Assembly: GCA_029267415.1 (NCBI GenBank)
Contig: JAJUIY010000002.1
Coordinates: 1 to 39,187 of the forward strand
Reading direction: 5' to 3'
Origin: Alcaligenaceae bacterium
GTDB taxonomy: Bacteria > Pseudomonadota > Gammaproteobacteria > Burkholderiales > Burkholderiaceae_B
Length of the DNA: 39,187 bases
A model generated the notes under the pieces. The model ran no database searches and was not told where the DNA came from. It saw only the letters and a list, made by a program, of their open reading frames with translations. Below are positions 7,096 through 11,791 of the stretch, piece by piece; position 1 is the stretch's first letter, and each line of letters opens with the position of its first letter. A program made the position numbers and the translations under genes.

Positions 7096-8451
7096 GTGCT
7101 AAACACGAATCCCAATCAAGTGGCCCTGCGTGGTCCGGCGCTGACGTTTAAAGACAACCCGTTCCTGGTTGGCGACGACGCCGCCATGCATTACGAACCG
7201 GATGCACTGGTGCTGGTGCAGGACGGCACTGTGCGGGAATTTGGCGACTACACCGCGCTACGGGACACCATCAGCCCGGAAACACCGGTTACGCACTACC
7301 CAGATTCGCTCATCCTGCCCGGTTTTATTGATGCGCACGTGCATTACCCGCAGCTGCAGGTAATGGGGTCGTTCGGTACGCGCCTGATCGATTGGCTGAA
7401 CACCTATACCTTTGTGGCCGAACAGCAGTTTTCCGACGAAGCATACGCTGAAAAGGTGGCCGAAATATTTCTGCACGAGACCTTACGGTCCGGCACAACG
7501 ACCGCGGCCGTCTACTGTACGGTACACCCCCAGTCGGTCAACGGTTTTTTCCGGGCGGCCGAAAAAACCGGCCAGCGCATGATTGCCGGAAAAGTCTTGA
7601 TGGACCGACACGCGCCCGAGGCACTGACGGATACCGCCCAAAGTGCTTATGACGACTCCAAGGCACTTATTAACGATTGGCACAACCGCGGGCGGCTTAT
7701 GTATGCCATCACCCCGCGCTTTGCGCCAACCAGTACACCGGAACAGCTGGAAGCGGCGGCCACCCTATGGCGTGAACACCCCGACACCTACATGCAAACC
7801 CATACCTCGGAAACGGTGGAAGAGGTGGCGTGGGTTAAAAAAATATTCCCGCAACACCGCAACTATGTCGATGTGTACGCGCAGTACGGCTTAACCGGTC
7901 CACGTGCCATTTTTGGGCATGCCATCCATTTAAGCGACGCCGAATGGCAGCAACTGGCCGATTCGGATTCGTCCATCATTCACTGCCCAACGTCCAATAC
8001 CTTTCTGGGCAGCGGCTTTTTTGACGCGGTGCGCGCCACGGGTGCCGGCTCCGCCCAAGGGCCCGTTCGCACCGGCCTGGCGACGGATGTGGGCGGCGGC
8101 ACCAGCCTGTCGATGCTTAAAACGATGGGTGAAGCGTACAAGGTAGGGCAGTTTGCCGGGCATGCCTTGTCTGCCCCAAAGGCCTTCTGGATGGCGACGG
8201 CAGGCTCGGCACGTGCGCTGCACCTGGACGACCGCATCGGTACTATCCGCGTAGGTGCCGAGGCCGACCTGCTGGTACTGAACCTTCGCTCCACACCTCT
8301 AATCGACTTCCGGATGCAATACTGCAACAGCCTGGCCGAAGCCCTGTTCATCCAAATGACCCTTGCCGACGAGCGCGCCACCCGTGCGGTCTATATTGGT
8401 GGGCAGCTTAAGTACCACGACGCGCGACAAAGCGCCGCACATACTCGTTGA
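7096..8451 (+). CDS. guaD: Guanine deaminase
   Basis: Amidohydrolase PGFIDAHVHYPQLQVMGSFGTRLIDWLNTYTFVAEQ; QTHTSE; HCPTSNTFLGSGFF. GTG at 7096 preceded by AAAAGG chosen over the ORF-track start 6931. Confidence 0.85.
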   Translation: MLNTNPNQVALRGPALTFKDNPFLVGDDAAMHYEPDALVLVQDGTVREFGDYTALRDTISPETPVTHYPDSLILPGFIDAHVHYPQLQVMGSFGTRLIDWLNTYTFVAEQQFSDEAYAEKVAEIFLHETLRSGTTTAAVYCTVHPQSVNGFFRAAEKTGQRMIAGKVLMDRHAPEALTDTAQSAYDDSKALINDWHNRGRLMYAITPRFAPTSTPEQLEAAATLWREHPDTYMQTHTSETVEEVAWVKKIFPQHRNYVDVYAQYGLTGPRAIFGHAIHLSDAEWQQLADSDSSIIHCPTSNTFLGSGFFDAVRATGAGSAQGPVRTGLATDVGGGTSLSMLKTMGEAYKVGQFAGHALSAPKAFWMATAGSARALHLDDRIGTIRVGAEADLLVLNLRSTPLIDFRMQYCNSLAEALFIQMTLADERATRAVYIGGQLKYHDARQSAAHTR

Positions 8452-11400: not shown

Positions 11401-11791
11401 TAAGTACCAGGCGAATAACCTGTGTAATAAAGCTGGCGCTTTCCCATGTTTGATCAGCCATGCGTATAGTTTCAGAACTGCAGGCCGAGGCATCGCCAGA
11501 ATCGCTTGAGCTGGTAATGCCAGACGTTGAATTGGTGATATCAGACGTATTGCCGGCCGACCCGCCCGCCGCCTGCGCAACCACCGTTGCCGGACCCGTC
11601 AAGCCAGTGGCAGGCGCGTTTCCGGACGCGGCGAGTACTGGCAGGCTTGCGCTACTAATTACCAGTACGGCGGCCCAAGCGGCACGTTGTAGCCTGTTGA
11701 AAACGCCTTGTCGTGTCGCGCTGCGCGTTGCGAAACCGAACCGGCCCATCGTGACCCATTCCCTTCCTGCCCGCCGAATCACTGGTCGCAT
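8408..11791 (-). CDS. Single-chain glycine betaine/proline-type ABC transporter: substrate-binding protein + ProW-type permease + ProV-type ATPase fused
   Basis: 1127-aa uninterrupted ORF. N-terminal signal-like segment, then ProX/OpuAC-like domain ([44 protein letters not shown]). Permease part [43 protein letters not shown]. NBD with [37 protein letters not shown], VTHD. Alternative start ATG at 11749. Confidence 0.88.
   Translation of the reverse strand: [1127 protein letters not shown]

Follow-up and report, generated by a model that had tools for sequence, protein, structure and literature searches.

An open reading frame joining the binding protein, permease and ATPase of an OpuA/ProU-type ABC importer in an Alcaligenaceae bacterium

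Introduction

Work on type I ABC importers deals with complexes built from several separate subunits. In amino-acid importers of the GlnPQ type the substrate-binding domains are N-terminal, as in the protein described here, from which they differ in belonging to another binding-protein family, in being arranged in tandem and in working with a separate ATPase. These tandem domains are linked to the permease (PMC8025302). In OpuA of Lactococcus lactis (7ahc-7ahh) the binding domain is covalently tethered to the C-terminal side of the permease, and the ATPase is a separate subunit with a CBS module; a helix-turn-helix region of this ATPase, OpuAA, has been reported as an osmotic sensor (PMC10710835). 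DmpXWV, a marine bacterial importer of DMSP, has a separate binding protein, and in RnDmpX the aromatic residues of the pocket are W35, W84, W152, Y200 and W202 (PMC10030565).

We analysed a 39,187-nucleotide stretch of an Alcaligenaceae bacterium (the whole stretch is hereafter the window), in which an earlier note had described one ORF with binding, permease and ATPase parts in that order. Here we compare this locus with the systems above and with its relatives in the same GTDB family and beyond.

Results

One reading frame with three importer domains

The ORF map of the window contains a single open frame of 1127 aa at 8408-11791, as the earlier note had it, on the minus strand, a detail which the note left out; the plus strand across the same positions, in the frame as given, is broken by stops. 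Translation may begin at M1 or at M15, each with a purine-rich stretch on its 5' side; the latter start would give 1113 aa. Pfam places OpuAC (PF04069, aa 108-393, 1.8e-47), BPD_transp_1 (PF00528, aa 591-753, 1.4e-25) and ABC_tran (aa 902-1049, 7.6e-33) on the chain in this order, all well over the curated cut-offs and separated by disordered linkers. Combining these matches with alignments, we delimit a substrate-binding domain of the OpuAC family (aa 105-424; 10520-11479, minus strand; also matched by Foldseek), a permease domain of the ProW/OpuABC type (aa 490-764; 9500-10324, minus strand; also from NCBIfam) and an ATPase domain (NBD) of the ProV/OpuAA type (aa 857-1127; 8411-9223, minus strand; also from its motifs). 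The EAA loop of the permease is intact at aa 667, as are the Walker A, Q-loop, LSGG signature, Walker B, D-loop and H-loop of the ATPase.

The NCBIfam models nearest to the permease and ATPase are choXWV, ProW and ProV, all scoring under their cut-offs (choXWV ATPase, 322 bits against 484; ProV subfamily, 319 against 327; choXWV permease, 265 against 363; ProW, 258 against 439). There is no Pfam match to a CBS domain in the fused protein, whose chain ends at the NBD, whereas the separate ProV-like ATPase of the same genome does carry CBS, which argues against OpuA-style regulation via such a module. By sequence, the ORF is a predicted member of the OpuA/ProU (OTCN) class of type I ABC importers, resembling HutXWV and DmpXWV.

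Linkers, predicted structure and topology

The N-terminus carries a putative Sec-type signal peptide (aa 15-55; 11627-11749, minus strand) with Arg in the n-region, a hydrophobic core (hydropathy peak at aa 37-55, helix at 27-48) and a predicted cleavage site at ..PVLA-ASG, followed by a low-complexity stretch up to aa 104. A Gly/Ala/Asp-rich linker (aa 425-485; 10337-10519, minus strand), disordered by sequence and AlphaFold prediction, leads from the binding domain to the permease. Between permease and ATPase lie an Arg-rich tail and an Ala/Thr-rich linker (aa 765-856; 9224-9499, minus strand), a junction which is new in the fused forms and coding-like in frame (GC1 0.75). AlphaFold prediction of the chain, with an alignment of 50 family sequences as input, gave three confident domains, with very low confidence at aa 49-99, 422-488 and 785-853. 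The low-complexity junctions of the earlier note are thus predicted to be disordered, but its Arg-rich stretch before the NBD is mostly the permease's own conserved C-terminal tail. The linkers at aa 56-104, 425-485 and 765-856 are longer in the window protein than in its two congeners, and this low-complexity expansion looks lineage-specific.

Foldseek ranks Lactococcus OpuA first for the ATPase domain and matches the binding domain to the DMSP-binding protein RnDmpX. The permease aligns with OpuABC (7ahc_A) over 253 residues (1.2e-66) and the NBD with OpuAA (7ahc_D) over 263 residues (1.4e-84), both almost gap-free, the latter including the helix-turn-helix region. The window protein and Lactococcus OpuA share permease and NBD families as well as a tethered binding domain, but in the former the binding domain is N-terminal, the ATPase is fused and CBS is absent. 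Membrane helices were placed by eye at about aa 533-548, 552-570, 571-597, 619-633, 635-659, 690-714 and 731-752, and Arg-rich segments lie at 598-620 and beyond 760. The odd number of helices and the positions of the Arg-rich segments fit an N-out/C-in arrangement, from which we infer that the N-terminus would be outside and the NBD inside.

Binding pocket and likely substrate

The nearest solved binding protein is that of DmpXWV (7yle; 25% identity in the fold match), and all five of its aromatic pocket residues are present in the window protein, as W116, W164, W248, Y295 and W297; they are kept in 14 of the 14 family members aligned. Of the further RnDmpX ligands, T64 is retained as Thr in the window and is P or S in many relatives, Glu113 is replaced by Gln193, and Ala153, which may bind via its backbone, by Val249. 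A second comparison comes from pSymB of Sinorhizobium meliloti, where an operon with the same three families in the same gene order, about 52% identity and the same aromatic box lies between hutF and a histidine ammonia-lyase gene. This operon corresponds to hutXWV, whose transporter handles histidine and is reported to accept betaines and proline as well. It differs from the window in having three separate genes and a histidine-utilisation setting: no histidine-utilisation genes occur near the window's importer, whose neighbours are genes for guanine deaminase, a LysR-type regulator, SDR, ALDH and tartrate dehydrogenase.

The complete aromatic box and the hut-linked relative together point to a betaine-like or amino-acid-like cation, which is our best guess at the substrate. 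Sequence does not fix it, as Gln193 and Val249 differ from the DMSP protein and the relatives include a hut-linked transporter. The label 'glycine-betaine type' of the earlier note describes the fold and does not establish the substrate, given the hut-flanked relative and a nearest solved protein that binds DMSP.

Distribution and stepwise origin of the fusion

We searched for orthologues in 151 and then in 269 genomes of the GTDB family, taking binding domains at E < 1e-85. The search returned 56 orthologues, of which 50 are close (>=51% identity), and the fusion of binding protein and permease is present in about 50 close orthologues. In two-gene relatives (for example L043, L053 and L038, the last being the Burkholderiaceae MAG JAGOAJ010000014.1) this binding-protein-first fusion is shared, the binding domain is 51-69% identical to that of the window and the site is mostly the same one after rpsJ, but the ATPase is a separate gene in another frame that adjoins or overlaps the permease stop. 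Frames of more than 900 aa occur in only four orthologues, namely the window's, those of two congeners and that of G052, from another genus; all three genomes examined from the window's genus carry the three-way fusion. ORF maps of the other three-domain ORFs give lengths of 995 aa (L040), 945 aa (L041) and 1033 aa (L042), and in the two congeners the domains are 63-79% identical to the window's. The two-way fusion is therefore common in the family, while the three-way fusion occurs in four genomes. The joining of binding protein and permease, one part of the fusion described in the earlier note, is ordinary here, and only the joining of the ATPase is unusual. The claim of a genuine fusion with an N-terminal binding domain and an attached ATPase has held, the three-domain ORF being found in four genomes. 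The order of its parts is opposite to that of Lactococcus OpuABC.

In 35 two-gene loci the ATPase gene begins at, over or a few bases from the permease stop, and in 35 of 35 its frame differs from that of the permease. Simple loss of a stop codon is ruled out as the route to fusion by this difference, which means that an indel or insertion was needed. The Arg-rich permease tail, which ends at the stop codon in two-gene relatives, is retained in the fused proteins, and the linker that follows it varies between them in length (about 27-90 aa) and content. On the tree the fused state needs two changes, forced by the starred branches, and a single origin is recovered in 0% of bootstrap trees; an AU test against one fused clade, a group named after the tree was seen, gave p = 0.023. 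A single origin is disfavoured by these results, and the three-way fusion, as far as the sequence tree tells, apparently arose at least twice, in two lineages.

Beyond the family this transporter usually comes as three separate genes, with a few other two-way fusions. Among the listed permeases of the phylum, drawn from 399 genomes, the window's is the only frame of more than 900 aa; the longest of the others, where checked, proved to be separate genes or two-way fusions, and in a Nakamurella candidate (L039) permease and ATPase are separate. This supports the rarity of the three-way fusion among these listed permeases. Searches of open-licence papers found no description of a betaine importer made as one polypeptide. 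What may be new is thus the joining of the ATPase, the binding-protein-first fusion being ordinary for the family.

Genomic setting

The importer lies in a gap between ribosomal protein genes. In the 151-genome sample, 42 of 43 close orthologues follow rpsJ and/or precede rplC in the same orientation, usually directly (placement was read from coordinates by hand for G087, G021 and G093); G214, which came up only when 269 genomes were searched, has no ribosomal genes in 17 kb around the transporter. Both rpsJ and rplC are on one contig in 134 family genomes, adjacent in 56 (120-529 bp) and separated by inserts of 1.8-78 kb in the other 78, of which 39 contain the importer. In five genomes of other families the spacing is 62-216 bp. 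The foreign cargo of this gap, ordinarily a closely packed ribosomal neighbourhood, differs between the window (6735-16336) and loci L040-L078 and L105-L126, comprising the importer, guanine deaminase, Bug/TctC proteins and others.

A predicted rho-independent terminator follows directly after rpsJ (16270-16301, minus strand; hairpin and T-run search). Its hairpin, AACGCCATGC..GCATGGCGTT, is followed by a T-run in most transporter loci, and a hairpin with T-run lies 3' of rpsJ in 27 of 27 transporter loci, against 0.3 expected from mononucleotide shuffles, and likewise in the window; hairpins after rpsJ are also found in many family members lacking the transporter. Co-transcription of the importer with the ribosomal genes is disfavoured by this terminator, and the insert probably forms a separate transcription unit at the edge of an operon, not part of the ribosomal transcript. 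The arrangement suggests that the str operon ends at rpsJ and that rplC begins another. The open-licence literature yielded nothing relevant on ABC transporters within the S10 operon.

Within the window, the importer and guanine deaminase genes stand tail to tail, their 3' ends overlapping by 44 bp (8408-8451); similar overlaps of 29-70 bp occur in L040, L061 and L063. Between rpsJ and the importer (11900-16119) lie a tartrate dehydrogenase/ALDH/SDR cassette and a LysR-type gene on the opposite strand. The best models for the ALDH are aminobutyraldehyde and betaine-aldehyde dehydrogenase, both under cut-off, and none of the three enzymes (tartrate dehydrogenase, ALDH and SDR) neighbours the importer in any relative that was mapped. 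Further along, next to the str operon on its rpsL side, 21425-25256 encodes a response regulator, a LysM/FecR-like protein and a sensor kinase whose sensor domain looks extracytoplasmic (names by eye), the first two recurring at this position in 12-13 family loci. A 473-aa protein at 25287-26708 (minus strand) has a C-terminal GGEEF diguanylate cyclase domain and possibly an N-terminal globin-type sensor (by eye).

Discussion

We consider it likely that the ORF encodes a complete OpuA/ProU (OTCN) type I importer that is made as one polypeptide and works as a dimer of two chains, on the grounds of the ORF itself, its domains and motifs, the comparative series and the two origins on the tree. 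That the ORF is an artefact of assembly or sequencing, with a stop removed or a frame shifted, seems to us very improbable. The four genomes with the fusion are all drafts, those of the source and its two congeners being in 250-304 contigs, but chance or error is unlikely when two congeners and a genome of another genus share the three-domain ORF. The linker is moreover different in each of the four, and at about 27-90 aa these linkers are coding-like, whereas an indel at the ordinary overlap of stop and start would leave almost no linker.

With a real fused ORF, the working ATPase might nevertheless be made separately, or also separately, through an internal start or proteolysis of the linker, to give an ordinary multi-subunit complex. 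The second linker, at about 90 aa and predicted disordered, has in-frame candidates for such a start, namely a single ATG and several GTG/TTG codons, and the ATPase is its own gene in relatives; yet no internal start there has a clear Shine-Dalgarno, and the in-frame junction has been kept independently in two lineages, leaving us to regard this as unlikely. A further proposal, compatible with a one-chain importer, concerns function: that the protein chiefly takes up the osmoprotectant glycine betaine under the control of osmotic strength, as OpuA or ProU does. The OpuAC domain, the complete aromatic box and the helix-turn-helix region of OpuAA, kept in an ungapped alignment of the NBD and assigned a sensor role (PMC10710835), are in its favour. 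It appears doubtful when set against the lack of CBS in an importer whose genome has a separate ProV-like ATPase with CBS, and against the hut genes flanking the separate-gene relative.

Returning to the one-polypeptide importer, we postulate that the Sec signal would export the N-terminal binding domain, which a flexible linker would tether to the permease, and that beyond the permease C-terminus the chain would pass through another flexible linker to an ATPase in the cytoplasm. The transporter would consist of two such chains, with two binding domains, two permeases and two ATPases, and a homodimer bearing two binding domains is plausible. The aromatic box may capture a small quaternary ammonium or sulfonium cation of the betaine kind, or else a solute of the betaine/amino-acid type; the loaded binding domain would then dock on the permease, and ATP hydrolysis would power uptake. 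As for evolution, the probable order of steps begins with three genes, passes through a fusion of binding protein and permease with an overlapping ATPase gene, and ends with a frame-restoring event that adds a linker and joins the ATPase. We lean towards the fuller proposal that a homodimeric one-polypeptide importer with a 1:1 tethered stoichiometry was reached at least twice, by convergent fusion of the ATPase as the last step.

For the family, the rpsJ-rplC gap is a recurrent insertion site that interrupts ribosomal genes whose order otherwise hardly varies. A one-chain importer would fix the stoichiometry and tether the ATPase as well as the binding domain, and would therefore offer a compact model for the effects of tethering on docking, cooperativity and assembly, for which the relatives supply a before/after series of separate genes, two-way fusion and three-way fusion.
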